Shown: piece by piece, positions 1,045 through 33,420 of the stretch
How positions within the stretch are numbered: the first letter of the stretch is position 1
Layout: each line of letters opens with the position of its first letter
Source: a virus
Virus record (IMG/VR): IMGVR_UViG_3300036860_000377
Span: 1 to 57,073 of that record
Direction: 5' to 3' (one strand)
DNA: 57,073 nucleotides
Program-made: the position numbers and the translations under genes
The notes under the pieces: generated by a model
What the model was told of the DNA's origin: nothing
What the model saw: only the letters and a program-made list of their open reading frames with translations
The model's database searches: none

Positions 1045-1383
1045 ATGATCACGTACCCCACGATCCCGCTGAGCGGGACCGTGACCGACGTCATCGACGT
1101 CTCGCAGGCCCGCGACAACCTTGGGCTGTGGATTCCGACGATCACCAGTGGGCAGGTATTGCTTCGCGGCTCATTCGATCAGACGTCGGCCAACTTCGTG
1201 CCCGTCTTCAACCCGAATGCGACCCCGATCTCGTCCCGCTGGTACGTGGATGCGGCGGCGGGCAACCTCACCCTGGCCATCGACTGGCAGGCCGTCACGT
1301 TTCCGTTCATCAAGCTGGAGACGTCGGTAGTTCAGGCCGCCGTCCGTTCGTTCGCCGTGTTTAGCAAGGGGGCCGGGGCGTGA
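1045..1383 (+). CDS. Putative virion protein, 112 aa
   Basis: The product is rich in beta-forming residues, Thr, Ser and Val, and has no Cys, which suits a small beta-sandwich virion or head-completion protein. It lies between the coat gene and the large glycosyltransferase fusion, and its TGA overlaps the GTG start of the fusion (GTGA at 1380). No family motif is recognised. A head decoration or neck role is a guess from position. Confidence 0.65.
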   Translation: MITYPTIPLSGTVTDVIDVSQARDNLGLWIPTITSGQVLLRGSFDQTSANFVPVFNPNATPISSRWYVDAAAGNLTLAIDWQAVTFPFIKLETSVVQAAVRSFAVFSKGAGA

Positions 1384-4316: not shown

Positions 4317-4327
4317 GGCGGTGAGCG

Positions 4328-4843
4328 ATGCCAGCGACCCTGCCAGTCTCCTATACGACCACGAGTCTGATGTTCATCACGTTGCCGGATCTCGGCAGCG
4401 TGACGACGCTGAGCAGCGCCCACATCGCGACCTTCGCTGGTGAGGCCGAGTCCGAGATCAATGCCAACATCGCGAGGTATTACGCACTCCCGCTGACGGT
4501 TGACGTTCCGCTCCTGACGACCCTCGCGACCGATATCGCGATTTACAAGATCTTGACTCGGCGGTTATTCACGGCCGAGCGTCTGGCCGCCAGCCCCTGG
4601 CCCGATCGGTACCGGGAATCTATCGCCATGCTGCTCAGGGTCGCGGCCGGCGAATTGCCACTCGTCGATGCGTCTGGCGCCATGCTTCCCGGACGCACCG
4701 ATGTGGCCGAGGTGTTCTCGACGACGAAGAACTACAAGCCGACGTTCTGGGAAGGCCCGAATCAGTATCAGTGGATCGATCAGCAGAAGGTGGAGGACGA
4801 GGCTGCCGCCCGGGACATCACGCTTCGGAACATGGTGCGCTGA
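4328..4843 (+). CDS. Head-tail connector, DUF1320 / Mu gp36-like
   Basis: The 171-residue product has the pattern of the DUF1320 family (phage Mu gp36): a short N-terminal strand, then a helix of the type ESEINANIARYYALPL, then helices with the DIAIYKILTRR pattern. Members sit at the neck where the head meets the tail. The gene is placed between head genes and the tail terminator candidate, as expected. Its TGA overlaps the next ATG (TGATG at 4841). Confidence 0.75.
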   Translation: MPATLPVSYTTTSLMFITLPDLGSVTTLSSAHIATFAGEAESEINANIARYYALPLTVDVPLLTTLATDIAIYKILTRRLFTAERLAASPWPDRYRESIAMLLRVAAGELPLVDASGAMLPGRTDVAEVFSTTKNYKPTFWEGPNQYQWIDQQKVEDEAAARDITLRNMVR

Positions 4844-5277
4844 TGCGGATTGATTACTGGGGTCTGGAAGAAGAGGTGAAGGCGATCCTCGATACCGAAT
4901 TGGTCGATGGGCACGTTGATATCGAGCGCGAGTTTCAGTTCGCGAGCGAATCGACACCATGGGTCGGGATCTATCTCGATCGCCGTGACGCCCCTGCCAG
5001 TCTGCAACCTCTCGCGGCTGGCAAGCAGACGCGGATGCTCGTCCGCCTTCGCCTCGACTGCCGAGCCTACAGCCTGGAGTCGATCGCTCGGGCGAGTCAG
5101 TTCCGCGATGAACTCATCGGGCGCGTGGAAGTCGCGCTCATGAAGCACCGAGACCTGAACGGGAAGGCGACGGCGAGCTGGCTGGAGGGCGGGTCGTTCT
5201 CGCGTGTGCCTCAGCAGGACGGCTGGATCAGTGGCGGCGAAGTGATGCTCGTGGCCGACGTGAAAGCGACGACGTAA
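4843..5277 (+). CDS. Putative neck or tail-terminator protein, 144 aa
   Basis: The start at 4843 overlaps the connector stop. The 144-residue product mixes helices and strands, has no Cys or membrane segment, and lies directly before the tail tube gene, the classic slot for the tail terminator or Mu gp37-like neck protein. The assignment is mainly positional; I see no diagnostic motif. Confidence 0.6.
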   Translation: MRIDYWGLEEEVKAILDTELVDGHVDIEREFQFASESTPWVGIYLDRRDAPASLQPLAAGKQTRMLVRLRLDCRAYSLESIARASQFRDELIGRVEVALMKHRDLNGKATASWLEGGSFSRVPQQDGWISGGEVMLVADVKATT

Positions 5278-5289
5278 AGGAGAGCCCGC

Positions 5290-6252
5290 ATGCCCTACGG
5301 ATTCGCGGGATTTATCGGTTTTGCGGAGGAGACGACGTGGGGCACCCCCGTCGGTGTCAACTCGGGCGATTTCATCGAGGCGATGAGCGAGAACGTCACC
5401 CTCGCGATCGATCGCTATGAGGCCCGCAACATCGTCGGCCGGTTCGTGGAGGGCGACGACTTCGCGGGAACACGGCGAATCGTCGGCGATCTTGTGTTCC
5501 CGGCCCATCCGCTGCATCTGGGCCGGTTCCTGAAAGCCAACTTCGGCAATATCTCGACGGTCACGGTGGTACTCTCCGGCTTCCTGTGGGAGGTGGACTT
5601 CCGCCCTGCCACAGCCGACGCGGCGGCGAACAATCCCCTGCCGCCTCTAACGCTGGAGATCTTTCGCGACGTTACGAGCTCCAACCGCTACGCCGGCGCG
5701 CAGGTCACGAAGCTGGGTCTGTCGGTGCAGCCGAACCAGGACCTTCGGGCGACGGCGAGCATTCTCGCGAAGACGACCAGCATGGTGGCGAAGTCGACCC
5801 CGACGTATCCGGCGACTGGAACCAACCCGTTCGTGTTCGACACCGCGAGCGTGCAGATTGCTGGCAGCGCCGTGGATTACGTCGAATCGCTGGCCATCGA
5901 GTTCGACAACCAGCTCGAGGGCATCCCGGTCTTGAACAACTCGACTGACATCGCGAGGGTGCGACGGCGCGGTGCCCAGCAGATTCGGGTACGAGGCACG
6001 GTTGGGTTCGAGACCGCGGCGGAATATGGGCGCTTCACGCAACAGAGCGAAGCCAACCTCGTCGCGTCCTGGGCCCAGACGAATTCGTTCGGGCTTGTGC
6101 TGCGGGTCCCGCGACTGATTTACACGGCGTTTCCGCTCGGAATGCCAGGCGATCAACGGCTCACGGTGGCCTTCGAGGGCATGGGGCGCTTTGACGCGAC
6201 GCTGGGCTTCGCGCTGCAGGCACGGCTGACGACCGTGAAGAGCAACTACTGA
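5290..6252 (+). CDS. Tail tube protein
   Basis: The 320-residue product follows a good ribosome site (AAAGGAGAG before ATG 5290). Its N-terminus, with GFAEETTWGTPVG, matches the usual opening of siphovirus tail tube proteins, and the rest is beta-rich with few charged clusters. It lies between the terminator candidate and the frameshifted chaperones, the conserved order in long-tailed phages. It would stack as rings to make the hollow tail. The stop TGA overlaps the next ATG. Confidence 0.75.
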   Translation: MPYGFAGFIGFAEETTWGTPVGVNSGDFIEAMSENVTLAIDRYEARNIVGRFVEGDDFAGTRRIVGDLVFPAHPLHLGRFLKANFGNISTVTVVLSGFLWEVDFRPATADAAANNPLPPLTLEIFRDVTSSNRYAGAQVTKLGLSVQPNQDLRATASILAKTTSMVAKSTPTYPATGTNPFVFDTASVQIAGSAVDYVESLAIEFDNQLEGIPVLNNSTDIARVRRRGAQQIRVRGTVGFETAAEYGRFTQQSEANLVASWAQTNSFGLVLRVPRLIYTAFPLGMPGDQRLTVAFEGMGRFDATLGFALQARLTTVKSNY

Positions 6253-6769: not shown

Positions 6770-7338
6770 TGGAGGTCAGCGGCGATGTCCGGCTCACCGG
6801 CCTCAAGGAACTTGACGATGCGCTTCGCGGGATTTCCGCTGAGGTCCGCGGCCCGATCATGCGCGACGCCCTGAAAGCCGGGGGCGAGGTAATCCGCGAG
6901 GGTGCCGCGAAGAACATCCATAGCCGGAGCGGACAGACTGCCGCCGAGCTGAACGTCGAGATTCAAATCGGTGATGAAGAGGTCGGCGGCGCTGCGGCAA
7001 TTGGGGCGATCAAGGGCGGCCGTCCGACCAAGCGCAACCACATTCTGAACTTCCTGGAATTCGGCACGAAGGCCCATAACGAACCGAAGCGCCGGGGACG
7101 ACTTCGCCGATTCGAGGCGCGAGCCGGGAAGTCGCTGAAGTCGATCAACGCGGCGAAGCGCGTCGCCTTCGGCGGCCGCGTGTTCTCACGTGTGCATCAT
7201 CCCGGTATTCAGCCCCAGGCCCCCCTGACGAACGCGCTCGCGGATCAGGCCGGGGCCGCCATCGAAGCATTCATCCGGACAGCGTGGCGGGGTATCGAGG
7301 CCACGGCGGTCCGCTTCTCGGGGAAAGCGGGAGGATAG
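6769..7338 (+). CDS. HK97 gp10-family tail protein
   Basis: The 189-residue product shows the HK97 gp10 pattern: an N-terminal GLKELDDALRGI, a helix with DALKAGGEVIREGA, then FLEFGTKAH, and HHPGIQPQAPLTNAL near the end. Members are neck or tail-completion proteins. The usual place is between connector and terminator; here it lies after the chaperones and before the tape measure, a mildly unusual order. The start overlaps the preceding stop. Confidence 0.75.
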   Translation: MEVSGDVRLTGLKELDDALRGISAEVRGPIMRDALKAGGEVIREGAAKNIHSRSGQTAAELNVEIQIGDEEVGGAAAIGAIKGGRPTKRNHILNFLEFGTKAHNEPKRRGRLRRFEARAGKSLKSINAAKRVAFGGRVFSRVHHPGIQPQAPLTNALADQAGAAIEAFIRTAWRGIEATAVRFSGKAGG

Positions 7339-10396: not shown

Positions 10397-10873
10397 ATGG
10401 CGCGCACACTGTCAGCCACGGCCGTCGCAGCCCTCATGGCGCAAGAGACAAGTGAGGTGTTCCTCGGTCTTTTGACCTTGAGCCATCCGGATCTATCGCC
10501 GCCAATCCGAATCGTGAACGACACCGTAAACGTCACGAGCCGCGGGAATATATATATCGCATTTCCGTATCGTCTTGAGATGCCGTGGGAGCGAGACGAC
10601 GAGCTCCCGCAAGTAACGCTCGAGATCGACAACGTGGACCGCACGATCGTCCAGGCTGTGCGGGCACTCTCGGCGCGCAAGGATCTGACGGCACTCTTCG
10701 AGGTCGTGCTGGCCAGTTCGCCGGACACTGTTGAACTGGCCGAGCTATTCACTCTGCGCGGCGCGGAGTACGACGCCCTCGTGGTCCGCGGCCGACTCCA
10801 GTTTGAAGATGTCCTGAACGAGCCGTTTCCGGCCGATTCGTTCACGCCGGCCACTACACCGGGAATCTTCTGA
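10397..10873 (+). CDS. DUF1833-family tail protein
   Basis: The 158-residue product shows the DUF1833 pattern: an early TLSHPDLSPPIRIVND, then SRGNIYIAFPY, then EIDNVDRTI, and near the end a DVLNEPFPADSF stretch. This family sits just upstream of the NlpC/P60 tail-tip gene in many phages and probably belongs to the distal tail, like lambda gpL. Its stop overlaps the ATG of the next gene. Confidence 0.75.
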   Translation: MARTLSATAVAALMAQETSEVFLGLLTLSHPDLSPPIRIVNDTVNVTSRGNIYIAFPYRLEMPWERDDELPQVTLEIDNVDRTIVQAVRALSARKDLTALFEVVLASSPDTVELAELFTLRGAEYDALVVRGRLQFEDVLNEPFPADSFTPATTPGIF

Positions 10874-13800
10874 TGGTGCCCCCCTGGACCCGTGACTATA
10901 TCGGCATCCCCTGGAAGAGCAAGGGGCGCGACCGAATGGGGTGCGATTGTCTCGGGTTGGCCCGGCTGGTCTGGGCAGAGCAATTCGGCCTGAAGATTCC
11001 GTCGTACGACGAATGCTATGCGACCGCTGAGGATCTTCAGGAAATCGCGCGCATCATCGCCGCCGAGAGTGGCTCCTGGCGCAAGGTTCCGACGGAGGAT
11101 GCGCGGGCGGGCGATGGCGTGCTGTTACGGGTCCTCGGTAACCCGAGTCACATCGGGGTCGTCGTGGAGCCGCCGACATTCTTGCATGTAGCGCCGGGGA
11201 TCAACGCGTGCCTCGATGATTACACGCGCCCGCACTGGGCCAAACGCTTGCTCGGCATCCATCGCCACGAGGATCTCTTGAGTGAGGCGTCACCGGACGC
11301 TCTCGCCTCACGGGTTATCGCGCCGGCCGAGATTCTTGATCCGAACTCCACGCTCAGGAGCCTTATCCTTCCGCACCCCTTCTCGAACGAGCGCATCGAC
11401 AGGACGATCAAGGTTGGCGCCACGCTCGCAGAGATTCTCGAGGATGCCGGGTTGCCCATCGGGCCGATGCGCGGATTCTCGATTCGCGTCTTTATCGACG
11501 GCCACGGGCCGATCCCTCGAGAGTGGTGGTCGCGCATCAAGCCGAAAGCGGGCCGGATAGTTACTGCGCGCATCATCCCGGCCAATGCGGGAGGGGGTGG
11601 CGGCAAGAACGTGCTCGGGATGGTTCTGATGGTGGCCGTCATTGTCGTGGCGATCGTCGCTCAACAGTACTACGCGGTCGCTCTCGCAGGGGCGCTTGGG
11701 GTCTCGGCGGCCACGGCGAGCGCCCTCATTGGTGCCGGCGTCATCGTCGCAGGCGGCCTCCTGATAAACGCGATTGCGCCCCCTCAGACCCCGAGCCTCG
11801 GGAGACTGAGCGGTGCGGCGAGTAGTCGATCATCACTCGACGGGTCAAGCCCGACGCTCTCTATTACCGGTACGCGCAATCAGATGAGCCCCTATGGCCC
11901 GATTCCGCGCGTGTATGGTCGACATCGCATGTTCCCGCCGCTTGGGGCATCGACGTTCACGGAAGTCGTCGGGAGTGATCAGTACTTGCGCATGGTCCTT
12001 GTGCCTGGCTATGGCCCGCTGAACATCACCACTATTCAAATCGGGGACAATCCGATCCTAAACTTCCAGGGCGTCGAGGTCGAGATCCGCCAGGGTTATA
12101 GCAACGACACGCCGCTGACGCTCTACACGGATGACATACACGAAGACCCGCTCTCCGTCGTGCTCACCCAGGCCGGAGGATCGGCCATCCGAACCACTCA
12201 ATCTGATGCCGATGAGATCAGTGTCGATATTGTGTTCCCGAATGGTCTCTTCGCGCTTGCATCCGATGGCACACGCCTGCTCGCTACGGTCGCCGTCACC
12301 GTCGAATATCGTCTCGTCGGCGCGACATCCTGGACGCTGCTCGCAGAGGACGGCGATTTCAACCCCAGTACATGGGTCTCGGGCGTGTTCCGACGCGGTC
12401 GCCGGTGGACTACCAACAAAGGACAGTATGAAGTCAAGCTGACCCGGACGACGGCCGACTCAAGCGATTTGAAGATTCACGATCAAGTGTTTTGGTCGGC
12501 GCTACGGACGATCCGTCATCGGGACCCGATTACGAAGACGGGCCTTGCCAAGATCGGGCTTCGGATTAAAGCGACCGACCAGCTTAACGGTGTCGTTGAT
12601 CAACTCAACTGCATCGTTGAGTCGATCATCCCGGACTGGGATGCGGGCAGCGGGACCTGGATCACGCGCGCGACGAGCAATCCAGCCTCGATTTATCGGG
12701 ACATTCTCCAGGGTTCTGCGAATGCTAGACCGGTCGCCGATGCGCGTATCGACCTTCCGGGACTTCAGGCATGGCATGAGGCGAACGCTACGGCCGGCCG
12801 CTTCTTCAACGCCATCATCGACTTTCGGACCACCCTGTTTCAGGCGCTCCGGGATGTCGCGGCAGTCGGACGAGCGTCCTTTGCCATGAAGGACGGGAAA
12901 TATTCCGTCGTTCGTGACATCCCTCAGACAGTGCCGATTCAGCATTTCACCCCAAGGAACAGTAAAGACTTCAAGAGCACCAAGGCGCTGCCGGATCTTC
13001 CTCACGCGTTCAAGGCGCGATTCATCAACCCGAACGCTAACTGGCAGCAAGATGAGCGGATCGTCTATGACGATGGCTTCAACGCCGACGGGAGCGGCGG
13101 CTTGACGCCGGCGTCAAAGTTCGAGGTCCTCGAACTGCTCGGCGTGACGGACTCTAATCAGGCGTGGCGGGACGGTCGCTATCACATTGCGGTGGCCCGT
13201 CTTCGTCCCGAGACGTACGAGCTGATGACGGATATCGAGCACCTCATCTGCCAGCGGGGCGATCTGGTGAAGGTCGTGCACGATGTGCCGCTCTGGGGGT
13301 TGGCGTATGGGCGGGTGAAGGCTGTCCAGGTCGACGGGAGTGGCAATGCCACCGGGGTGACGGTCGACGAGATCTGCACGATGGAGATCGGGAAGAGTTA
13401 TGCGATGCGCTTCCGGCGATCGACCGGAGCCTCGGTCATGCAGCAAGTGATCACCGCCGCCGGCGAGCAGACGACCGTGACATTCACCGTAGCCATCTTG
13501 GCGGCCAGTAAGCCGGCCGTTGGGGATCTCTTCCTATTCGGTCTGCTCAATAGTGAGAGCGTGGACCTCCTCGTCCAAGGCATCGACCCTGGACCCGACT
13601 TCTCGGCGAAACTGACCCTGGTCGACGCCTCGCCGGCCGTGCACACGGCCGATACGGGCCCGATTCCGGCCTTCGAATCCCAGATCACGCAGCCAGCGCT
13701 GATCCAGCGCCAGTCGCCCGCGCCGATTATCGATAGCGTCGTGTCGAACGAAGATGTGCTGACGCGGGCCATCGATGGTGCGCTCGAGAGCCGCATCCTG

Positions 13801-15078
13801 GTCGGTTTGCACTTCGTTTCGACGACCGACGTGCCCGCGATCTACATCCAGGCGCGCTATCGCGAGACCGCCGCTGCGGGAGCGGTCGAGAACAAGTGGA
13901 TCAACCTCGCGCCGGTACCCGCCGAAGCGGGCCAGGTCTCGATCGCGCCCGTGCAAGACGGCATTGCCTACGACATCCGGATACGTTCAATCGGGGGGCT
14001 GGGAGAAACATCCGAGTGGATCGATATTCTCAATCACACGGTGATCGGCAAGACATCCGCACCGCCAGACGTCTCGACGCTGTTCGTCATGGGCACACTA
14101 CTCTCGTGGAGCTATCCGAATCCTCCGCGCGACTTCGCCGGGTTCCGGGTCAAGGCTAGGGCAGGGACGGCGAGTGTTTGGTCGGGCGCCAATCAGCTCC
14201 ATGACGGCCTGATCACCCCGACCGAGCTCGACATCGCTGGCCGCCTCGGCGCCGGGACCCAGACGATCATGGTCAAGGCGGTGGACGTCGCCGAGAACGA
14301 GAGCGCGGGCGCGGCAGTCCTGACGCTCAATCTCGGCGACCCGACCATCGACAACATTATCCTCACGATCGACTACGGTGCACTCGGCTACCCGGGCACG
14401 ATCGTCAATGGCTCGGTCGTCGGTTCGGAGATCCGCGCCACGAGTGATGCGTCGCTCTACCTCCCGAAGGGCGAGGCCGCGTACCTGCCCGACGGCGCCG
14501 CACTCTACCTGCCCACGACGTACTTTGAGATGAGTTACGCGGCGGTCGTCATACCTGATGCCGATGCGGTACCGGCGGAACTTTCTGTCGCGGTCACGAC
14601 GCAGGGGGAGGACTATTTCCTCGAGTTCCGCGGCCGCGGCGACAACGCGCTCTATCTCCCGATCGGCAGCGATCTCTACCTGACGAACGGCGCCGGTCTC
14701 TATCTCGGCGGCCCAGAACCCTACCAGCCTTGGCCTGGGAAGCTCGAAGTCACGCGCGCGACCTACGATGTCCGCGCGACGGTCGCCGCCGGCGCCACGC
14801 AGGGGAAGATCACTTCCTTCGTGGCCAAGGTCGACGTGCCGGACATCGACGAGGTCCTGGAGGATGTGGCGCTCGCCTCCGGCGGCACGCGCCTGCCCAT
14901 CACGAAGCACTACCGGAAGATCGCGCACGTGGGCGCCGATCTTCAGGACACCGGCACGGGGGCGGTGAGCATCCTCCAGCTCGACAATGATCCGATGCTC
15001 GGGCCGCTGCGCAAGGCGATCAACGCTGCCGGCGCCGGCGTCGCCGCCGTGGTCGACTTCCGCGTCAGGGGCTACTGA
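10873..15078 (+). CDS. Tail-tip fusion: NlpC/P60 peptidase, gpI-like and gpJ-like host-specificity protein
   Basis: The 1401-residue protein combines parts that are usually separate (lambda K, I and J). Residues about 10-130 are an NlpC/P60 cysteine peptidase with the active Cys in GCDCLGL (about 22-28) and His in HIGVVV (about 93). Residues about 160-240 resemble the ubiquitin-like region of gpI. A Gly-rich linker and a hydrophobic double helix follow (about 245-300). From about 338 (SPYGPIPRVYGRHR) onward it is a gpJ-like tip protein with fibronectin-like beta domains. Near 1193-1216 and 1258-1280 it carries YLP-type repeats (LYLPKG, AYLPDG, LYLPTT, LYLPIG, LYLTNG). It would form the tail tip, cleave peptidoglycan locally and contact the host. 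Confidence 0.85.
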   Translation: MVPPWTRDYIGIPWKSKGRDRMGCDCLGLARLVWAEQFGLKIPSYDECYATAEDLQEIARIIAAESGSWRKVPTEDARAGDGVLLRVLGNPSHIGVVVEPPTFLHVAPGINACLDDYTRPHWAKRLLGIHRHEDLLSEASPDALASRVIAPAEILDPNSTLRSLILPHPFSNERIDRTIKVGATLAEILEDAGLPIGPMRGFSIRVFIDGHGPIPREWWSRIKPKAGRIVTARIIPANAGGGGGKNVLGMVLMVAVIVVAIVAQQYYAVALAGALGVSAATASALIGAGVIVAGGLLINAIAPPQTPSLGRLSGAASSRSSLDGSSPTLSITGTRNQMSPYGPIPRVYGRHRMFPPLGASTFTEVVGSDQYLRMVLVPGYGPLNITTIQIGDNPILNFQGVEVEIRQGYSNDTPLTLYTDDIHEDPLSVVLTQAGGSAIRTTQSDADEISVDIVFPNGLFALASDGTRLLATVAVTVEYRLVGATSWTLLAEDGDFNPSTWVSGVFRRGRRWTTNKGQYEVKLTRTTADSSDLKIHDQVFWSALRTIRHRDPITKTGLAKIGLRIKATDQLNGVVDQLNCIVESIIPDWDAGSGTWITRATSNPASIYRDILQGSANARPVADARIDLPGLQAWHEANATAGRFFNAIIDFRTTLFQALRDVAAVGRASFAMKDGKYSVVRDIPQTVPIQHFTPRNSKDFKSTKALPDLPHAFKARFINPNANWQQDERIVYDDGFNADGSGGLTPASKFEVLELLGVTDSNQAWRDGRYHIAVARLRPETYELMTDIEHLICQRGDLVKVVHDVPLWGLAYGRVKAVQVDGSGNATGVTVDEICTMEIGKSYAMRFRRSTGASVMQQVITAAGEQTTVTFTVAILAASKPAVGDLFLFGLLNSESVDLLVQGIDPGPDFSAKLTLVDASPAVHTADTGPIPAFESQITQPALIQRQSPAPIIDSVVSNEDVLTRAIDGALESRILVGLHFVSTTDVPAIYIQARYRETAAAGAVENKWINLAPVPAEAGQVSIAPVQDGIAYDIRIRSIGGLGETSEWIDILNHTVIGKTSAPPDVSTLFVMGTLLSWSYPNPPRDFAGFRVKARAGTASVWSGANQLHDGLITPTELDIAGRLGAGTQTIMVKAVDVAENESAGAAVLTLNLGDPTIDNIILTIDYGALGYPGTIVNGSVVGSEIRATSDASLYLPKGEAAYLPDGAALYLPTTYFEMSYAAVVIPDADAVPAELSVAVTTQGEDYFLEFRGRGDNALYLPIGSDLYLTNGAGLYLGGPEPYQPWPGKLEVTRATYDVRATVAAGATQGKITSFVAKVDVPDIDEVLEDVALASGGTRLPITKHYRKIAHVGADLQDTGTGAVSILQLDNDPMLGPLRKAINAAGAGVAAVVDFRVRGY

Positions 15079-17974: not shown

Positions 17975-18454
17975 ATGACGATTGTCGTTGTCGCGGTCCA
18001 CGAGGAGTGCCCGGCGGTGGTCGCGCTCCGCTCATACCGACTGCCGTTCGATCTGGTGCGCGTGCGCGATGAGTTCACCTACGGCCAGACGCTCACGCGC
18101 TACTGGCAGGCGGGCGAGACGTTTATCAACGTTGAGCACGACATCGTGCCGTGGCCCGGCGCCCTGGAGGCGCTGTGGGCGTGCGATCGGCCCGCCTGGT
18201 GCGGCTACGAATATCCGGTCGGCTACTCGGGCAAATTCGGCCGGTCGCTCGGCTGTGTCCTTTTTCACGACGCATTCCTGCGCACGCATCCCGACGTGTC
18301 GTGGACCGATGTCCCCTGGTCCACCCTCGATGCGTCCATCTACCGGACGATGGGCCAGACGTGGCACACACACGTCCCGCCTGTCGCGCATCTCACGCCC
18401 CTCAAAACCCTGGCGGGCATCTCTGCAGTGCACTCAATCACGACCGAGTATTAG
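17975..18454 (+). CDS. Small GT-A-like glycosyltransferase candidate, 159 aa
   Basis: The product opens with a hydrophobic strand (MTIVVVAVHEECP) and carries INVEHDIVPWPGAL near residue 51, resembling the acid-x-acid metal site of GT-A glycosyltransferases, followed by WCGYEYPVGYSG. At 159 residues it is much shorter than a full enzyme, but similar short proteins occur in other phages. It lies between a terminator and a virion-like gene. Role in glycan transfer is inference. Confidence 0.5.
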   Translation: MTIVVVAVHEECPAVVALRSYRLPFDLVRVRDEFTYGQTLTRYWQAGETFINVEHDIVPWPGALEALWACDRPAWCGYEYPVGYSGKFGRSLGCVLFHDAFLRTHPDVSWTDVPWSTLDASIYRTMGQTWHTHVPPVAHLTPLKTLAGISAVHSITTEY

Positions 18455-18468
18455 AGAGGAGCACGACA

Positions 18469-18906
18469 ATGGCGAGGTATGCGTGCGGAGTCTTGACGGG
18501 GGCCGGGTCGACCACCCTGCCGATCATTTCCTTGTACAGCATTGCGGGCGTGAGCCCGTCCATTCGTGAGTGCGGGCTCACCAACACGACCGCGACCGCC
18601 GTCGCCCTGAAGCTCGTGTATCTGACGACCGCGGGTACCCAGGGCGCTGGCCTGACGGAGACGAAGTATCGCGATGGCGCGGCGGCGGCAAGCTCGACGG
18701 GCTTCACCACACACACGGTCGCCCCGACTCTGGGCAACGACCTCGGCTATCGTGCCTCGCTCGGCGCGGCCGTCGGGGCGGGCGTGATCTGGACCTTCGG
18801 CGATCAGGGCATCACCCCGCCCGTCGGAACGGCGAACGGCCTCGGTGTCATCGTGGAAAACGGTACGGGGCAGGCGATCCAGGCCTACATCGTGTTTGAC
18901 GAGTGA
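18469..18906 (+). CDS. Virion-like beta protein, 145 aa
   Basis: GAGGAG lies 9 bases before ATG 18469. The product is rich in Gly, Ala, Thr and Val with one strand after another (for example VALKLVYLTTAGT), suggesting a small beta-sandwich. It probably decorates the tail or tip. It overlaps the following methyltransferase (TGATG). Confidence 0.6.
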   Translation: MARYACGVLTGAGSTTLPIISLYSIAGVSPSIRECGLTNTTATAVALKLVYLTTAGTQGAGLTETKYRDGAAAASSTGFTTHTVAPTLGNDLGYRASLGAAVGAGVIWTFGDQGITPPVGTANGLGVIVENGTGQAIQAYIVFDE

Positions 18907-19400
18907 TGTCTCTCGACGAATTGTTTCTGAAGCATGGCACGGACAAAAGCTCGACGGGCCACAACTATGCGCCTATCTACGAGCGCTATCTCCAGCCGGA
19001 CACCATCACGTCACTCCTCGAGCTCGGGGTCGCTTCGGGCGCATCGCTCCGGGCGTGGCGGGATTGGTGTCCGCGAGCGCGGATTCACGGGATCGAGCGT
19101 GACGCTCACGTGGCTCTTGCTATCGAGGGCTGCGTGATTCATTACGTTGATGCGACAGACAAGAGACTGACCGACTTCCTCGGCGTGTTCGACGTCGTGA
19201 TCGACGACGCCTCCCATGAGGTCGCGCAGATCGAACGCGCCCTTGAACTGCTCTGGCCCCATCTCACTCCAGGGGGCTGGTACGTGATCGAAGACCTCGC
19301 GGCGCATGCCACTGTTGGAGGAGTGGCGCTCTTCCTCCGGCCGGGCGTGACCGAGTTGCATCGTCATGGCGAGATCCTCTTCGCCAGAAAGGCCGAGTGA
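18906..19400 (+). CDS. SAM-dependent methyltransferase, 164 aa
   Basis: The N-terminus has the signature KHGTDKSSTGHNYAPIYERY followed by LLELGVASGASLRAW (SAM-binding loop near residue 36) and an acidic GIERD, then FDVVIDDASHE near 99. This pattern is known from sugar and antibiotic O-methyltransferases. No target-recognition domain for DNA is present, so a small molecule or glycan is the likely substrate. It starts and ends with overlaps, inside the fibre region. Confidence 0.75.
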   Translation: MSLDELFLKHGTDKSSTGHNYAPIYERYLQPDTITSLLELGVASGASLRAWRDWCPRARIHGIERDAHVALAIEGCVIHYVDATDKRLTDFLGVFDVVIDDASHEVAQIERALELLWPHLTPGGWYVIEDLAAHATVGGVALFLRPGVTELHRHGEILFARKAE

Positions 19401-19863: not shown

Positions 19864-22436
19864 TGCCGGGCCCTAACGACACCGACAGTTACGGCGGCTG
19901 GAAGGACTTTCCGATCAGTCCACCGGGGACCGGGAAATGGGCTGTCTCCCGGCTGGGTCGTCAATGGCTCTTCGTCACGCCCGAAGGCTACGGGCTTTGG
20001 ATGAACGCTATCTTCGACGCCGAAGCGGATACGTCGACCGACGAAGGCGCGATCTCCTATTCGGCTACGGCGGGCAACCGCATTCCCGTACTGCTCTTAA
20101 AATACGGGAGCATGGCGAACTGGGCGGCGGCGATCAAGAAGAAGTTGACGTACTGGGGTTTCAACACCCTCGGGGACTATACGAACTTCAACCTCTGGAG
20201 CCTGATTCCCTTCACCCACATCATTAGCATAACGATCAACGCGGCGAAAAACCGAGATTTCGGTAGCGGAACATATGGCTCGGCCAGTGCAACCCGGGAC
20301 CTCACGTCGGGCACGCCGTCAACGTTCACAGGCTGGACGGGCTCACCATCGCCAGATGTTTATGCTCCGCAATACAAGACGTATGCGACAGGATACTGCG
20401 CTGACGACTCGGTCACGGGTCTCGGCACGGTGAATGGAGGAGGCCAGTTGATTGGCATCGCCACTGATGACATGGACTTCCTCTACGGCTTCAACCGGGC
20501 GACGACCGATGCCCTAAACGGGATGGCGACGTTCTCACCCCAGTGGCATATCGGCTACCTCGTCATGATCGGTCGCCCGGTCCAGGCCGAGGGGAACGTG
20601 TCGCAAGGCATCGGGCTCATCACCTACAACGATCCGATCCTCTACAGCAAGCGGGCTCTCCGCAACACGGTCGTAGGGCGCCATGGCACGCTCTCGGCGC
20701 TCGGCGTGACAGTCAGCACGAGCGGCACCGCCGCGACGTTCTCTGGCGTGCATGGCCTCGCCGTCGGGGATTTCATCACGATCACGAGCGGCCCCGAATC
20801 CGGGGACATCCGGCGCGTCAATGCCGTCCCGACGACGTCCACGGCCACGCTCGAATGGGCCTTCTATGCAGATCAATCAGCGGGGACCTCGGTCTCCAAG
20901 ATTCCGGCGACCGGGGCGTTGACGGCTCTCAATACCTCCTGGGGTTCAAGCTATACGACTTTCGCCGAGCAGGACATCGCCCGAACCGGTGATCCGTGGA
21001 ACGAGTCGCGCTTCGTCGACGGCACGGCCGGCTGTAACTGCGTAAATGGAAATACGACGGTGACGCTCGACGCCGGAGTCCGCGTGCCTTTACGCACCGA
21101 TGGCAGCGACGTCGACAAATTGTTCAAGATCATCAGCGGCCTTTCCGGAGGTGGGGATCTTCTGACGTCAATTGCGTCCGTCACGGATAGCCTGACGGCG
21201 GTTCTCCGGACGGCCCCCACCGTGACCGCCAAGCGTGACTATCGGATCGTCCGCGAAGCCGCCGCTGGCTTCCCGACGCTCGAAGCTCTCTGGGGCAACG
21301 GGGTCCGACTCGATTACTCGGGGCTCGCGAAACTGACCGTGGTGGCCTACGACTCAAACAACATGAAGAACACGTTCACCGTGAAGGTGAACGGCGTCAC
21401 CAAGGGTACGGATGACGGTGCCGGCAATATCACCGGCGCCACAATCGCCTCGGGCACCATCAATTACACGACCGGGGCCGTGGGTTTCACCTTTACAGCG
21501 GGCAACGCCCCGCCGGATGGCGCTACGCTGACCTTCAACTACACGGGCTCGGGCTATGGAATCGGCACGTCGTTCCTGGACGAAGATGGCCACAACTCTT
21601 GGATGCCCACGAACCATGACGGTCTGGAACCGTTTAGCGGGACCACATCGGGCTTCCGGGCAGACCTCGACGCATTTCTGTTTGACTTTGCGAAGCAGTA
21701 TGCCCGGGTCACATCCACGGCGATCAAGGCGCATTTCACGGGCCATCTCGTCTTCGGCCCCGTCACACTCGGCGCGCGCTCGCAGTCGGGGGCTCCACGC
21801 AAGGAAATCTATCAGGGACTCGCCACCTCCTTTGACGTTTTCAATGTCCAGGCGGCCGACCAGAATCAGCTCGACTGGGCGGTCACCTATCTCGGTGACA
21901 AGCCGTTCGTGACGTGGGAGGACATCACCGCGAATCCCGACTCTCGGATGCGGGGCAATCCGCCGGGGGTTGATCCAAGCACTCCTGCGGACTGGACCAA
22001 GCACGGCCAGAAGCAACGTGGCCAGTCGTGGCAAGCCGTAGTAGCTAACATTCACACGTTGAAGAGCGAAGCCGGGGTGGCGAATATTGCTGGCTTCAAA
22101 TGGTGGGAGTTCCGCGATCGACTCTCAGAGAGCGCAAATTACGGGTTTCTGTCGATCGCCGACAACTGGTACGACGGCTGCGAGGCGCGGCGGCATGGAT
22201 TAATGGTCAACGGTCTGGACGATCTCGCCTGTGGCGGGCCGATGGCGGCCCTCATGCGCCCCCGCACGGATCGCTGGGGCTGGACGCTGATCGATGAACG
22301 CACCGATTTCGGCGACTTCATGTCGGCGGTGCTCTCGGCCAACTTCTCGGCATATGCGGCCGTCGCGGCCAACGTCGGTATGCTAGGCACGCCGCCTCCA
22401 GGCGTCATCCATCGGTTCGCCCGGCGGTTTCGATGA
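19863..22436 (+). CDS. Tailspike with agarase-like glycoside hydrolase fold
   Basis: The 857-residue product starts at 19863 (TAATG overlap). Residues about 20-140 read like the first part of an agarase-type TIM barrel: WAVSRLGRQWLFVTPEGYGLW and LTYWGFNTLGDYTNFN. The barrel appears to resume after residue about 600 (FDVFNVQAADQN, FVTWEDITANP, GFKWWEFRDR, NYGFLSIADNWYDG). Between them lie beta-rich inserts, one immunoglobulin-like. Acidic residues in WEDIT and WWEFRD are candidates for catalysis. As a virion protein in the fibre cluster it probably cuts a capsular or exopolysaccharide. Confidence 0.65.
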   Translation: MPGPNDTDSYGGWKDFPISPPGTGKWAVSRLGRQWLFVTPEGYGLWMNAIFDAEADTSTDEGAISYSATAGNRIPVLLLKYGSMANWAAAIKKKLTYWGFNTLGDYTNFNLWSLIPFTHIISITINAAKNRDFGSGTYGSASATRDLTSGTPSTFTGWTGSPSPDVYAPQYKTYATGYCADDSVTGLGTVNGGGQLIGIATDDMDFLYGFNRATTDALNGMATFSPQWHIGYLVMIGRPVQAEGNVSQGIGLITYNDPILYSKRALRNTVVGRHGTLSALGVTVSTSGTAATFSGVHGLAVGDFITITSGPESGDIRRVNAVPTTSTATLEWAFYADQSAGTSVSKIPATGALTALNTSWGSSYTTFAEQDIARTGDPWNESRFVDGTAGCNCVNGNTTVTLDAGVRVPLRTDGSDVDKLFKIISGLSGGGDLLTSIASVTDSLTAVLRTAPTVTAKRDYRIVREAAAGFPTLEALWGNGVRLDYSGLAKLTVVAYDSNNMKNTFTVKVNGVTKGTDDGAGNITGATIASGTINYTTGAVGFTFTAGNAPPDGATLTFNYTGSGYGIGTSFLDEDGHNSWMPTNHDGLEPFSGTTSGFRADLDAFLFDFAKQYARVTSTAIKAHFTGHLVFGPVTLGARSQSGAPRKEIYQGLATSFDVFNVQAADQNQLDWAVTYLGDKPFVTWEDITANPDSRMRGNPPGVDPSTPADWTKHGQKQRGQSWQAVVANIHTLKSEAGVANIAGFKWWEFRDRLSESANYGFLSIADNWYDGCEARRHGLMVNGLDDLACGGPMAALMRPRTDRWGWTLIDERTDFGDFMSAVLSANFSAYAAVAANVGMLGTPPPGVIHRFARRFR

Positions 22437-22915
22437 CCACGAATAAGCAAGCCTTCGGGACCTCGACCAGCCTCACGATTACGCTGAACAGCCTGACCAG
22501 TTCATCCACGGCGGGACGGGAATCGACGGCCGGTGACAACACCACGGATCTCTTCTTCGATGTCCTGGTCAGCTTGCGTCTGAATGTGGCCGCGGGCACA
22601 CCCGCGAACGATCAAAGTATCTACCTGTACGCCTATGGCTCAGAAGATGGCACGAACTATACCGACAATGCCACCGGCACGGATGCACCGATCACGCTGC
22701 GCGATCCCTTCAACGTCTCGTCCCCATTGATCCTGCGCGTGCCCATCCTCGTCGGCGGGGTGACGTTTAAGACGCATCCCATCGGACTTCGCCAATGGTT
22801 CGGGGGCAGTCTGCCGAGGAAGTGGGGGATCATCGTGCGCAATAACTGCGGGCTCAGCCTAGCGGCGAGCGGCAACGCCGCGACTTATACCGGCATCTTC
22901 TCGACGAATACATAA
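22433..22915 (+). CDS. Virion-associated beta protein, 160 aa
   Basis: The ATGA overlap couples it to the spike gene. Composition is Thr/Ser/Asn-rich with regular strands and a single Cys late in the chain. It probably forms a small beta-sandwich of the tail tip or fibre set. No family is recognised. Confidence 0.55.
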   Translation: MTTNKQAFGTSTSLTITLNSLTSSSTAGRESTAGDNTTDLFFDVLVSLRLNVAAGTPANDQSIYLYAYGSEDGTNYTDNATGTDAPITLRDPFNVSSPLILRVPILVGGVTFKTHPIGLRQWFGGSLPRKWGIIVRNNCGLSLAASGNAATYTGIFSTNT

Positions 22916-23605
22916 ATGGCGCGCGAGTTCACGACGACTACGGATCAGGTTGCCTTTACCAGTGATGCCGGGCTGAACATCACCGGCGACATTACCATCT
23001 ATGCATGGATCTATCTGAACGCGGGAGCGGTCTATCACGAACTCGTCGCGAAGATGGCGACCAATCGCGGGACCGATGTCCCCTATCTCTTCCGGACCAC
23101 GAACGCGAATCCTCCTGTTCTCTTCTTCTCGCGGGCGCACGCATCGGCTCCGGCTTCAGCCAGTTCAACCGGAACGATTTCAATCGGGGCATGGCATTGG
23201 GTGTGCGTGACCCATGACGGAACCACGGCGACGTTCTACATCGATGATCCCGCGACCGCTGATAGTTCGCCCGGACTGAACCTCATCCCGACGACGACAA
23301 CCGACGATATGACGATTGGAGAAGGCGAGGGGAATCTTGGGGGGAATTGTCGCATCGCCTGGGTCGGCATTCATACCGCTGTTCTGGGAGCGGATGATCG
23401 CGCGACCGCCAAGAATGAAGGCGTCGTTTCGACCAGCGGGATTCTCGGATGCCAGCTCGGGTCGGACCCGGAGCCGGATACCCTCGGAAGTCGCTCCGGC
23501 ACGGTGACGGGAAGCACCGTCATCGATGGACCACCCGGCGTTCCGGCTGGGGCGCCGCCCTCCCCAACCATCATCGGCGTCCTGTCGAGCGGCCTCCGCT
23601 GGTAG
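22916..23605 (+). CDS. LamG-type lectin-fold protein
   Basis: The 229-residue product follows directly on the previous stop. It has the jelly-roll pattern of concanavalin A-like/LamG domains: ITIYAWIYLN, then GAWHWVCVTHDGTTATFYID, then RIAWVGIHTAVL. A short Pro/Ser-rich C-terminus follows. Such domains bind glycans, fitting a receptor-binding or accessory fibre role. Confidence 0.7.
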   Translation: MAREFTTTTDQVAFTSDAGLNITGDITIYAWIYLNAGAVYHELVAKMATNRGTDVPYLFRTTNANPPVLFFSRAHASAPASASSTGTISIGAWHWVCVTHDGTTATFYIDDPATADSSPGLNLIPTTTTDDMTIGEGEGNLGGNCRIAWVGIHTAVLGADDRATAKNEGVVSTSGILGCQLGSDPEPDTLGSRSGTVTGSTVIDGPPGVPAGAPPSPTIIGVLSSGLRW

Positions 23606-23840: not shown

Positions 23841-24551
23841 ATGGCCGTCTCACCTGACGTCGCGACCGAGTCACATACTGGGACGGCAGGATCGGCGAGT
23901 GAAGCCTCCTTCTCGTGGTCGCACACCGGGGCGGCCTCCGGCGTCAAGGGCGTGCTCGTGTTCACCTTCGTCAATGCGAATGCGAATGACGCCCTCGGCG
24001 TCACCTATGGCGGCGTGCAGATGGCCCCCGTCTCGGGCGGGCGAGCCGTCGACACGGTGACTGAGCCCGGGGACTGCAAAGCCTGGTTCCTCAGTACCGG
24101 CGTACCGCAAGGGACGAAGACGGTTGTCGTGACTCGAAACAACAACGCCAATGTGATGTACGCCGTGGCCTGCACGGTCCTGGCGGCTTCCAACATGGAC
24201 ACGGACGTCCATACCGCTGGCATCGTGCTTGTGCAAGAGGACAACACGCTGGCCGAGCAGAGCGTGACGGACGGTTCGCCTGGCTCGAATAGCTTGCGCT
24301 ATGCCGGCGTCAATTCGGGGCTGGCCACGCCACCCGCGCAGGGCGCCAGCTCCACGGCGTTGCAGAGTATCGACTTCACGTCGCGGGGCTGCGCGGTCGT
24401 CCGCGAGACGACCGCGGGGCAGGGGGCTCGCTCCGTAGGATTCTCCTCCGGGACGAGCGACGACGTCGCGGCGGTCCATCTCGCCGTCAAAGAGATCGCG
24501 CAATCGCTTCCGACGCCTGACCGACACATGGCGCCGATGGTCCCTGAATGA
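23841..24551 (+). CDS. Virion-like beta-sandwich protein, 236 aa
   Basis: The product is Gly/Ala/Ser/Thr/Val-rich with periodic strands and resembles uncharacterised phage proteins from fibre regions. There is no enzyme motif. Its stop overlaps the start of the proline-repeat gene, which suggests joint expression. Confidence 0.55.
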   Translation: MAVSPDVATESHTGTAGSASEASFSWSHTGAASGVKGVLVFTFVNANANDALGVTYGGVQMAPVSGGRAVDTVTEPGDCKAWFLSTGVPQGTKTVVVTRNNNANVMYAVACTVLAASNMDTDVHTAGIVLVQEDNTLAEQSVTDGSPGSNSLRYAGVNSGLATPPAQGASSTALQSIDFTSRGCAVVRETTAGQGARSVGFSSGTSDDVAAVHLAVKEIAQSLPTPDRHMAPMVPE

Positions 24552-26608
24552 GGTTCCTCTATGGCGTGCCGCGAACGCCAGACGTCACGCCACCCTCGCG
24601 GTTCGTCAAGATTCCGACGCCGATCCCTCTAGCAGGCAAGCCGTACCGGATCATTGCCCCGCTCAAGCCGGACCCGGATCGCATTCTCCGGTCGACGTTG
24701 ATCGGCCAAGTGCTCCTCCCGATCCCGGCGTTGTTGTTCCTAAAGCCGCTCAAGGCGGTCGCCCAGCCGATCGCGACCGTAGCCGCCTCTGCGCTCCTCA
24801 CGTTCACCCTGCCCGCGGCCCCGCAAGTCACGACGGTCCCGAAGCCGCTGACCGCTGTCGTCCAATCAGCCGAGGATGCCCTTCGCCCGACGCGCCTGTT
24901 TGGCTCCGCGCCGGAGCCCGGCCTTCCGAATCTCCTGTTCCAGCGCCCGCTGGCCGGGATTCCACAGCCCGACATCGTGGTGCGGGCGCCCGCACTTGTC
25001 AGCGTGCCGGTTGCGGAGCGGACGCCGCTCTTCTTGCGCCCCCTGGTGGGCGTCGATCAGCCGATTCCATTCGTCGGGCCGCCGAGTCTCATCACAGTTC
25101 GATTCGCCGATCTGATTCCGCCAACCCGCCTCTTCGGCGTCGAGCAGCCGCCGTTTGTCAACCCGCCGTCCCGACTCCTTCAGGTGCCGGTGGCAGAGAC
25201 CCCGCCGTCGTTCCCGGACCTCCTTTTCTTCCGTCCGCTCGCAGGGGTCCTCCAGCCCGAGCCGGGACTGCGATCGATCTCGCTGCTTGTCGGCGGGCGG
25301 TTGCCGTTCACGGCGGCCCCTCTTGATCTCCTCTTCCAGCGGCCCCTGCAAGGCCGCCCGGTCGATCTACCCCAGGCGTCGGCTCCCGCGATCATTCGGG
25401 TGCCCTTCGCGGAGGCGGTGCCGACATTCCTCCGTCCACTCCGCGGGCTGTGCATTGAGCCGGAACCAGAGTTCGGCTCGGTTGTTCTCTTCGGACTTGA
25501 GCCAGACCGCGATGTGTTGTTCCTCCGGCCGCTCCAGGGCCGGCCCGCGCACTTCCCGCTGGTCGCCGATCCGCCGCGGATCATTCAAGTGCCCTTCGAA
25601 GTCCCCCTGCCGCCGCTCGACATCCTGTTTCAGCGCCCGCTGGCGGGGATTGTTCAGCGCCCGGTCGTGGTCCGGCCGGCCTTGCTGCTCCAGGTCCCGT
25701 TTGCGGAATTACCGCCCCAGAAGCCCCTCATCGGTATTCTGCAGGCACCGTTCCCCGTCGATCCCTCGCGGATCATCGGGGTGCCCTTTGCAGTGGCCGA
25801 GCCGCCGATTAATATCGGCTTCCAGCGCCCGCTCGTCGGAACGATTCAGCCCGAGGTCCTCGTTCCATCCCCGCGACTCCTCCGTGTTCCGTTCGCTGAC
25901 CTGATCCCATTCCGCCTCATCGTCGCGGGCCTGGACCAACAGCCCCTCATCACTGGTCTATCGAGAATCCTTCGGGTGACGTTCCCGGACGTCACGACTC
26001 CGGCGTTCGATGTTCTCTCTCAGCGTCCGCATCAAGGGGTGGCCCAGCCGGACATCGTCGTCTCACCGTCCTCACTGGTACAGGTTCCCTTTGCGGAGCG
26101 GATCCCGCTCTTCCTTCGCCCTCTGGTGGCCATCGTTCAGCCCGATGTCGTTGTGCCGCCATCGGGTATCGTCCGCGTGCCCGACGCAGAGCTCGTTCCG
26201 TTCCGCCTGGTCCTGCCAGGCATTGTGCAAGCGCCTTTCGTCACCGATCCCTCGCGGATCATCCGGGTACCGTTTGCGGTGCCGTTCATCCCGATCAACG
26301 TCTTGTTCCAGCGGCCGCTCCAGGGGATTCCGAAAGCGCCCTTCGTCGTATCGGCGCCCCTCATCATTCACGTTCTCTTTGCCGAGCGCACGCCGCCGCC
26401 GCGAGCGATGCGGGGCATCGAGCAGGCCCTCATTGAGGTCCGGCTACCGACGATCATTCCCAAGTGGCCGCTGGCCTCGGCGGCGCGGTTGCCTGATGTG
26501 ATCATCGGGAGTGCGCCGAATCTGCTGGCCCGTCGGACGGCGGTCTCGCTCAATCCTGACCGCCGCGCTCCCTCATTGAATCCGCGGAGGACAGCCCCCA
26601 ATGTGTGA
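24548..26608 (+). CDS. Proline-rich tandem-repeat protein of unknown family
   Basis: The 686-residue protein is built almost entirely of about 18 degenerate repeats of 30-37 residues. The core of each reads roughly LFQRPLAGIxQP, then a short variable piece, then a Pro-Ser/Arg pair and IIRVPFAE, ending in one or two Pro. Conserved points are RPL, G, QP and VPFA. The chain is extremely rich in Pro, Val, Leu and Ile, nearly free of Cys, Trp, Tyr and Met, and has a basic end (RRTAPNV). There is no signal peptide. The spacing suits a stacked or filamentous beta/polyproline structure, perhaps a fibre or spacer. It sits between virion-like genes, overlapping the first. I recognise no matching family. 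Confidence 0.75.
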   Translation: MRFLYGVPRTPDVTPPSRFVKIPTPIPLAGKPYRIIAPLKPDPDRILRSTLIGQVLLPIPALLFLKPLKAVAQPIATVAASALLTFTLPAAPQVTTVPKPLTAVVQSAEDALRPTRLFGSAPEPGLPNLLFQRPLAGIPQPDIVVRAPALVSVPVAERTPLFLRPLVGVDQPIPFVGPPSLITVRFADLIPPTRLFGVEQPPFVNPPSRLLQVPVAETPPSFPDLLFFRPLAGVLQPEPGLRSISLLVGGRLPFTAAPLDLLFQRPLQGRPVDLPQASAPAIIRVPFAEAVPTFLRPLRGLCIEPEPEFGSVVLFGLEPDRDVLFLRPLQGRPAHFPLVADPPRIIQVPFEVPLPPLDILFQRPLAGIVQRPVVVRPALLLQVPFAELPPQKPLIGILQAPFPVDPSRIIGVPFAVAEPPINIGFQRPLVGTIQPEVLVPSPRLLRVPFADLIPFRLIVAGLDQQPLITGLSRILRVTFPDVTTPAFDVLSQRPHQGVAQPDIVVSPSSLVQVPFAERIPLFLRPLVAIVQPDVVVPPSGIVRVPDAELVPFRLVLPGIVQAPFVTDPSRIIRVPFAVPFIPINVLFQRPLQGIPKAPFVVSAPLIIHVLFAERTPPPRAMRGIEQALIEVRLPTIIPKWPLASAARLPDVIIGSAPNLLARRTAVSLNPDRRAPSLNPRRTAPNV

Positions 26609-26617
26609 GGTGCTCTG

Positions 26618-26935
26618 ATGGCAACGACAGATCTCACGACCGGATGGACGGCACCGATCGATCACCAGCTCCTAGCAAATGACATCCCACTCGACGTGAC
26701 GGGTATGACGGTTGAGCTCGTCCTCACTGATCGTAACGGTGTGGCCATCGACACGTCCGGCGATATCACCGTCGAAGACGCCGCGACCGGGAAGGTGCGG
26801 TACAACCCGGACCCCGCGGATATCGACCACACGAGGGAACCGTATACGTGTCACTGGAAGGTCACCGACGGCGGCGGTAAGGTCGCTTATTTCCCGAACG
26901 GCGGGCCGGACGTGTACCGGATCTTTAAGGCATGA
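26618..26935 (+). CDS. Baseplate BppU-N-like beta domain protein, 105 aa
   Basis: The product resembles the small N-terminal beta domain of phage baseplate upper proteins: an early DITLDVTGMTVELVLTDRNG-like stretch, a central GKVRYNPDPADID and a late YFPNGGPDVYRI. Standing alone it may be an adaptor on the tail tip. Its stop overlaps the next start (ATGA). Confidence 0.55.
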   Translation: MATTDLTTGWTAPIDHQLLANDIPLDVTGMTVELVLTDRNGVAIDTSGDITVEDAATGKVRYNPDPADIDHTREPYTCHWKVTDGGGKVAYFPNGGPDVYRIFKA

Positions 26936-27993: not shown

Positions 27994-28268
27994 CCGTCGA
28001 GCGGCCCGTCGGAATGCCAGATTACATGCGGCCGGATTTGGACCTGGGCGGCGACGTCTATGTCGAATTCACGCATTGGTCGAAGGAGCATCACCCCGAT
28101 GCGCCGGATCCAGCCGGCGGCCTGCTTTGGCGTCCTGAGAACGAACGCTTCGGGCGCCCGATCTGGACGCTCAGCGCCATGGAGCCGCTCGATCTCGCGC
28201 CGTCTTTTCTCTGTCACTGCGGCTTCCACGGATTCATTCGGCAAGGGCGATGGGTGTCGGTGTCATGA
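27990..28268 (+). CDS. DUF6527-like protein, 92 aa
   Basis: A TTG start at 27990 overlaps the preceding TGA. The C-terminal half has LDLAPSFLCHCGFHGFIRQGRW, which resembles the conserved end of DUF6527 proteins common in phage and mobile-element clusters. The quoted stretch includes Cys/His residues that may bind metal. Function unknown. Confidence 0.5.
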   Translation: MTVERPVGMPDYMRPDLDLGGDVYVEFTHWSKEHHPDAPDPAGGLLWRPENERFGRPIWTLSAMEPLDLAPSFLCHCGFHGFIRQGRWVSVS

Positions 28269-28702
28269 ATCTCCACCTCACCCGCAAGTGGTTCACCGAT
28301 CACTCGACCATCGGCGAGTTGATGCTCGATGGGAAGTGGGAGTGTCTGGTTCTGGAGCCCGCAGCGAAGGGCGAGCACCCACGCATCCCGACAGGCCGCT
28401 ACCGTGTCGTCCTCACGCCCAGCGGCCGCGCGAAAGCTGGGACGCTCTGGTCACCGCGGCCTGATCACGCGCTGCCGCTGCTGCTCGATGTGCCAGGGCG
28501 CGAAGCGATCCGCGTCCACGCGGGGAATTCATCGAAGGACACCGAGGGCTGCCTACTCGTTGGTGAGCGCCGCTTCGCAGACACACTCGACGGCAGCCGG
28601 ATCGCGCTCATCGCCCTGATGGCGGAGCTCGACATGGGCCTGGCCGATGGAGGCGAGGTCTACATCACGATCGTCGATGCTGACGAAGGGGTGCTCGCAT
28701 GA
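28265..28702 (+). CDS. DUF5675-family protein, candidate cell-wall enzyme
   Basis: The 145-residue product fits DUF5675: an early STIGELMLDG, then LEPAAKGEHPRIPTGRYRVV, and the strongest motif IRVHAGNSSKDTEGCLLVG. The His-x-Gly-Asn and Gly-Cys pair recalls the active site of L,D-transpeptidase (YkuD) folds. The gene lies in the lysis cluster, which lacks a classical endolysin, so a wall-cleaving role is attractive but unproven. Confidence 0.65.
   Translation: MNLHLTRKWFTDHSTIGELMLDGKWECLVLEPAAKGEHPRIPTGRYRVVLTPSGRAKAGTLWSPRPDHALPLLLDVPGREAIRVHAGNSSKDTEGCLLVGERRFADTLDGSRIALIALMAELDMGLADGGEVYITIVDADEGVLA

Positions 28703-32682: not shown

Positions 32683-32686
<4 letters not shown>
32372..32686 (+). 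CDS. Single-TM membrane protein, 104 aa
   Basis: A basic N-terminal half is followed by one transmembrane helix (about residues 50-66, AWLCAGVLVAGSGLFAV) and a charged C-terminus. Coupled to both neighbours by overlaps. Unknown function. Confidence 0.55.

Positions 32687-33420
<734 letters not shown>

Follow-up and report, generated by a model that had tools for sequence, protein, structure and literature searches.

The virus sequence IMGVR_UViG_3300036860_000377, a single IMG/VR record of 57,073 bases that was analyzed over its whole length (the window), encodes a long protein made almost entirely of proline-rich repeats directly behind a small all-β gene. This locus raises the question of what such a chain is for and whether it belongs to the tail. 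A preliminary description of the DNA had proposed a fiber, spacer, or sheath. Our analysis favors, at a probability of roughly 60%, a reading in which the repeat ORF is the stalk or spacer half of a two-part tail appendage and acts as an interchangeable module of the tail-fiber cluster. The features on which the argument draws are collected in Table 1.

Table 1. Features of the tail-fiber region of the window, in order of position
Feature	Coordinates	Strand	Basis or remark
Central tail fiber/tail-tip J protein	10873..15078	+	PHROG 31, E 1.4e-109; Pfam FNIII-A_GpJ
160-aa gene	22433..22915	+	Relatives in L025, L026, and L029 directly precede LamG-like genes with 20-aa repeats
LamG/ConA-like lectin gene	22916..23605	+	Pfam PF13385, E 7.8e-15
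Head-domain gene, ~215-236 aa, all-β	23841..24551	+	AlphaFold pLDDT 92; BFVD matches
ATGA stop/start overlap, head-domain gene/repeat gene	24548..24551	+	Sequence
Pro-rich repeat protein, 686 aa	24548..26608	+	ATG start and stop codon; repeats by leave-one-out profiles
Degenerate N-terminal units, residues 1-128	24548..24931	+	Profile match of 18 bits at residues 62-88
Core array, residues 129-616, 14 clear units, modal length 32 aa	24932..26395	+	Profiles; synonymous sites saturated
Basic C-terminal tail, residues 651-686	26498..26605	+	Net charge +5 over the last 30 residues
BppU_N-like gene (upper baseplate N-terminal domain)	26618..26935	+	Pfam PF10651, E 2.3e-6, above cutoff
DUF5675 protein	28250..28702		Further downstream of the slot, towards the lysis region

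The repeat unit has the consensus LLFQRPLxGxxQPDxVVxPxxLIxVPFAExxP and varies in length from 29 to 36 aa, with a mode of 32. It occurs about 18–20 times, the clear copies being joined by degenerate ones at either end. A profile built from ten units marks 19 stretches of the chain, and 13 of these exceed 18 bits. Because this count is circular, the profile being scored on its own source chain, a leave-one-out test was carried out in which each of the 14 units was scored by the profile of the other 13, with 200 composition-preserving shuffles per unit as the control. Thirteen of the 14 score 16–51 bits, as compared to maxima of 7–11 bits for the shuffled proteins, the highest being 10.7; the unit at residues 455–486 is marginal at 10.8 bits. 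The first repeat, at residues 4–23 (LYGVPRTPDVTPPSRFVKIP), gives a very weak profile match and was aligned by eye with the units at 195 and 557. Self-similarity of the protein peaks at lags of 31, 65, 162, 191, and 199 residues, and a separate period analysis gives lags of 31 and 35; the 162-residue lag hints at duplication of a five-unit block. The leave-one-out profiles and the open frame agree with the earlier count of about 18 Pro-rich units over nearly the whole chain, which is a fair one.

The divergence among the copies reveals how the array has been kept. Differences between nine well-aligned units at codon positions 1, 2, and 3 are 0.42, 0.31, and 0.65, and identical residues share the same codon in 157 of 403 cases, as compared to the 165 expected from the codon usage of the gene. 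Tandem Repeats Finder detects no DNA-level array in the repeat ORF, in which the longer ungapped DNA copies are 60–79% alike, short stretches excepted. Since the residues persist and the synonymous codons are randomized, the array is old and held at the protein level. The preliminary description had claimed as much, and the saturation of synonymous sites, together with the two DNA-level results, bears it out.

The same data bear on whether the frame is a gene at all. The ORF could be spurious or decayed, with its Pro and Leu codons merely reflecting pyrimidine-rich DNA and no product being made. The coding strand is pyrimidine-rich, with a GC skew of −0.11 and an AT skew of −0.17 in 24001–26000, and the unit lacks a homologue in all collections searched. 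However, 686 codons stay open, the other five frames across the ORF contain 8–32 stops each, and G+C at the three codon positions (0.73/0.47/0.78) is similar to that of neighboring genes. Conservation at the protein level with random codons, the ATGA overlap, and the presence of a repeat module at the same place in relatives argue further for a real protein, and this explanation is very improbable.

The unit had been called unfamiliar, a description that survives every search made. Pfam returns no match to the repeat protein at E 0.01, Collagen (PF01391) included, and neither PHROGs nor NCBIfam matches the unit above cutoff; a consensus 64-mer affords two subthreshold matches in PHROGs, at E 0.014 and 0.11. 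No match was found with the repeat protein in a PDB sequence search or by tblastn against 50,697 phage records and 72,556 plasmids. Pattern scans of viral contigs, with the protein, the consensus 64-mer, and a two-unit alignment as queries, and, with the consensus as query, of 84,980 genomes from bacteria and archaea were likewise negative, although such scans demand near-exact matches of 8–10 residues and diverged relatives could escape them. The literature on Pro-rich phage tail repeats yielded nothing relevant besides a paper on phage Tweety (PMC2884959). On sequence comparison, the lack of a close relative can be regarded as established, whereas the lack of any relative would go beyond these scans. 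So far, the Pro-rich unit appears to be unique to the IMGVR_UViG_3300036860_000377 virus.

The gene immediately upstream, whose product we call the head, does have relatives. Its best structural matches in BFVD include minor tail proteins of the mycobacteriophages Gaia, TChen, DroogsArmy, and Tweety (E 3e-9 to 3e-8, TM about 0.6), and the predicted β-sandwich resembles these proteins. PDB fold matches, XepA and viral jelly rolls among them, were rejected as the identity of the head because they are too weak (best E 8.8e-3, Z about 5). The head domain has no match in bacterial genomes or named phage records. Among viral sequences, 90 candidate relatives of the head gene were found and 80 were kept (identified here by L numbers). 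The head protein aligns with 15 relatives at 50–63% identity, and in the head-domain tree the window groups with L033 and L013 at a modest support of 0.69.

A repeat array recurs at the same place in these relatives. Dereplication at 95% identity left 62 relatives that could be judged, a protein being counted as repetitive at a z of at least 6. An array is fused to the head gene or lies next after it in 47 of the 62, as compared to 12 of 221 other long ORFs of the same loci that reach this threshold, several of the 12 being collagen-like fibers or repeat genes beside the slot. Head and repeat form one fused protein in most relatives and separate proteins in the window; the same split arrangement, with the same ATGA junction, is found in L002 at 7278–7281. 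About a quarter of the head relatives carry no array at the slot, so the array is dispensable or replaceable. The place of the array had been read as suggesting a fiber or spacer, and the frequency of arrays at the slot, in about three quarters of the head relatives, upholds that suggestion and makes position a much stronger argument than that description could have known: it points to a fiber, spacer, or other tail appendage. For the role of sheath, which had also been proposed, no evidence was found.

The arrays that share this position differ in kind. Their period is 20–22 aa, or double that, in 45 of the 47 repetitive relatives, 33 in L033, and 9 in one collagen-like protein, and unit sequences are wholly different even among relatives whose heads share 50–63% identity. 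In the window, the head lies immediately upstream and the array directly after it, the two features that define the slot, and the period of 31–32 aa falls outside the usual class; the array is thus classed by its place in the slot and kept apart from the 20–22-aa class. Slot arrays such as those of L017, L021, L044, L013, and L019 are like that of the window in place after the head, length, codons randomized in nearly all of them, and basic C-terminus but unlike it in their 20–22-aa units, a Pro content of 0–10%, their other sequences, and their usual fusion to the head. The closest head relative, L033 (IMGVR_UViG_3300010391_001666, 62% identity), has an array that is likewise Pro-rich (15%) and has a 33-residue period. 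However, its unit, EEYWxNPxxPxxxWxPPxQAxxADDEI, is acidic, Trp-rich, and fused to the head, whereas the window array is a separate protein. Profile comparison detects no similarity between the L033 units and the window unit, BLASTP scores of the window array against the relatives' arrays are no better than those of a reversed-sequence control, and the repeat profile finds no match in 16 whole records behind the relatives. A Pro-rich class common to the window and L033 is possible. Pro/hydrophobic autocorrelation was also examined for a common sub-period of 10–11 aa uniting the 20–22- and 32-aa arrays, and this idea was dropped since no clear shared sub-period emerged. The window array is therefore not an isolated oddity; it sits in a slot where repeats of other types are the rule. 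The preliminary description had named absence from virions together with a lack of related proteins in other phages as grounds for refuting its proposal; no related repeat was found in other phages, but positional counterparts do exist.

The slot arrays share two further properties. Codon reuse is near random in nearly all of the relatives' arrays as well, L013 and L088 being more recent exceptions. Selection for codon scrambling between units was rejected as the cause: observed over expected reuse is mostly 0.75–1.25 with no consistent deficit, and saturation suffices. The second property lies at the C-terminus, where 37 of 44 slot relatives are more basic than they are in the body of the protein. 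Endings of RRRNVLIF, RRRNILIF, or close to these occur in 25 of the 44 nonredundant slot proteins (for example, L017, L021, L036, L038, L044, and L064), and a few others end in RRRVVFIF and the like. These endings constitute a conserved C-terminal signal, which perhaps serves assembly. The C-terminus of the window protein reads RRAPSLNPRRTAPNV, and an ending of the RRRNVLIF type is absent from it.

The genes around the slot are those of a tail-fiber region. The best cultured counterpart of the J protein is in Bradyrhizobium phage ppBdUSDA122-1, where a tail fiber gene lies between J and an amidase. A BppU_N domain directly downstream of the array is found in L015 as well (E 2.2e-8). In L037 and L039, the head gene is closely preceded by collagen fiber genes, and in L010 such genes occur in its vicinity; of the collagen fibers upstream of the head, one carries an Mtd_N domain and one a YadA_head domain. 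These surroundings bear on the idea that the repeat protein acts in the infected cell, as a moron or an envelope-acting or secreted repeat protein that sits in the tail operon by chance. Repeat genes outside virion modules do exist, Tweety gp54 being an example (PMC2884959), and the genes downstream lead to the lysis region, where the DUF5675 protein is encoded. The fusion of the array with a minor-tail-like head in most relatives and the fiber genes on both flanks weigh against this idea, which we consider improbable.

Repeats also occur elsewhere in these loci. In L025, L026, L029, and L031, the LamG-like genes downstream of the relatives of the 160-aa gene carry GIASAEAFGTPELxxxLKPT arrays with a 20-aa unit and lengths of up to 1,200+ residues, so a second fiber gene of the cluster also takes repeat stalks. 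L034 encodes, at 3208–5625, a repeat protein whose 19-aa unit is similar to TSVANSTASVSSPVPxIT; the head gene downstream of it has no fused array. Within the window, the 9-bp sequence CGCCGACGC is repeated ~22 times at 33144–33350, inside the ORF at 32683–33420. A 978-aa ORF ahead of the tail genes (1380–4316) has glycosyltransferase-like and methyltransferase-like segments by PHROG, and two small genes of the fiber region look, by appearance, methyltransferase-like (18903–19400) and glycosyltransferase-like (17975–18454).

The composition and predicted structure of the chain bear on whether it could form a stalk. The protein contains 18% Pro, 13% Leu, 11% Val, and 4.5% Gly, and its mean scaled hydropathy is 0.54, as compared to 0.42 at the boundary between folded and disordered chains. 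Four units were modeled with AlphaFold using an alignment built from non-overlapping segments of the protein itself; overlapping, shifted segments had collapsed onto themselves and were therefore avoided. The model has a pLDDT of 47, a pTM of 0.12, and no notable strands or helices. The preliminary description had envisaged a new fiber type with a regular stacked fold. The prediction lends that no structural support, and a pLDDT of 47 from an alignment of four rows neither backs nor excludes order. An alternative consistent with these values is a Pro-rich chain that lacks a regular stalk fold, is disordered for the most part, and has an adhesive or cushioning role; carried on the virion or released by the cell, it could serve, for example, as a flexible linker or as a decoy or adhesin. 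The Pro content and the variable length of the unit fit it as well as the AlphaFold values do. However, that alignment held just four rows, all of them the protein's own units; the high hydropathy is unlike that of typical disordered Pro-rich regions, which argues against ordinary disorder; and the unit has been retained despite saturated synonymous change. We regard a disordered chain as rather unlikely.

Known repetitive phage proteins offer partial parallels. The collagen-like proteins of E. coli O157:H7 prophages form rods between globular domains and are likely trimeric side-tail proteins (PMC3368898). The role proposed here is like that of these collagen-like stalks (PF01391), which in a side-tail fiber link globular domains through a rod of repeats. 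Collagen-like stalks have Gly-X-Y repeats, whereas the window protein, with its low Gly content, lacks them, has a unit of ~32 aa, and gives no Collagen match. EBPR siphovirus 2 gp72 (JF412297, L095; 5017–7776) is a long repetitive protein of 919 aa encoded between tail protein and lysozyme genes, and it provides a counterpart of the slot arrays in an annotated genome. It is annotated as hypothetical and has β-type repeats of 18–20/38 aa (VFTLVGG...); the Pro-rich unit of the window is absent from it. Tweety gp54 and VR2 of Bordetella phage BMP-1 bbp36 contain repeat regions that vary among relatives (PMC2884959). Their units are short (4 aa; 24 bp) and their repeats are kept at the DNA level, unlike the 32-aa unit of the window, in which DNA identity is largely lost.

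Together, these comparisons allow us to add detail to the proposed stalk or spacer. The upstream gene would supply a compact β-sandwich head of the minor-tail-protein kind, and translation of the repeat ORF is probably coupled to it through the ATGA overlap. The long, Pro-rich, hydrophobic, and weakly charged chain could then set the reach from the head, or from the tail tip, to another piece of the appendage. The repeat half may be swappable, as its sequence changes completely between relatives and the head and the place stay. We infer from position and comparison that the protein is present in the virion, that head and repeat make contact, that the chain functions as a stalk, and that the repeat module is swapped by recombination. 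Because the arrays are old internally yet unlike one another behind similar heads, exchange of whole modules likely explains their diversity better than fresh expansion in place. Given its unusual period and the lack of profile similarity to the L033 units, the window array need not do the same job as the others. More tentatively, the locus may represent a site that phages reserve, downstream of a conserved tail head, for stalk modules of distinct repeat classes, mostly of 20–22 aa and of 32–33 aa and Pro-rich in the window and L033, all of them old and swapped whole; the window would then hold the Pro-rich class, whose stalk fold would be one still to be described. We view this wider picture as possible but doubtful.

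The length and the spacing of its tail fibers help determine the cells that a phage can reach. If whole stalks are exchanged at a fixed place, the slot would be a natural catalogue of stalks and would allow a direct test of how fibers change in length and material during evolution. Tandem arrays are usually pictured as fresh expansions, a view that the saturated synonymous sites of nearly all slot arrays speak against. If it folds, the Pro-rich unit could be a new rod material, and the slot as a whole is of more interest than the single 686-aa protein.
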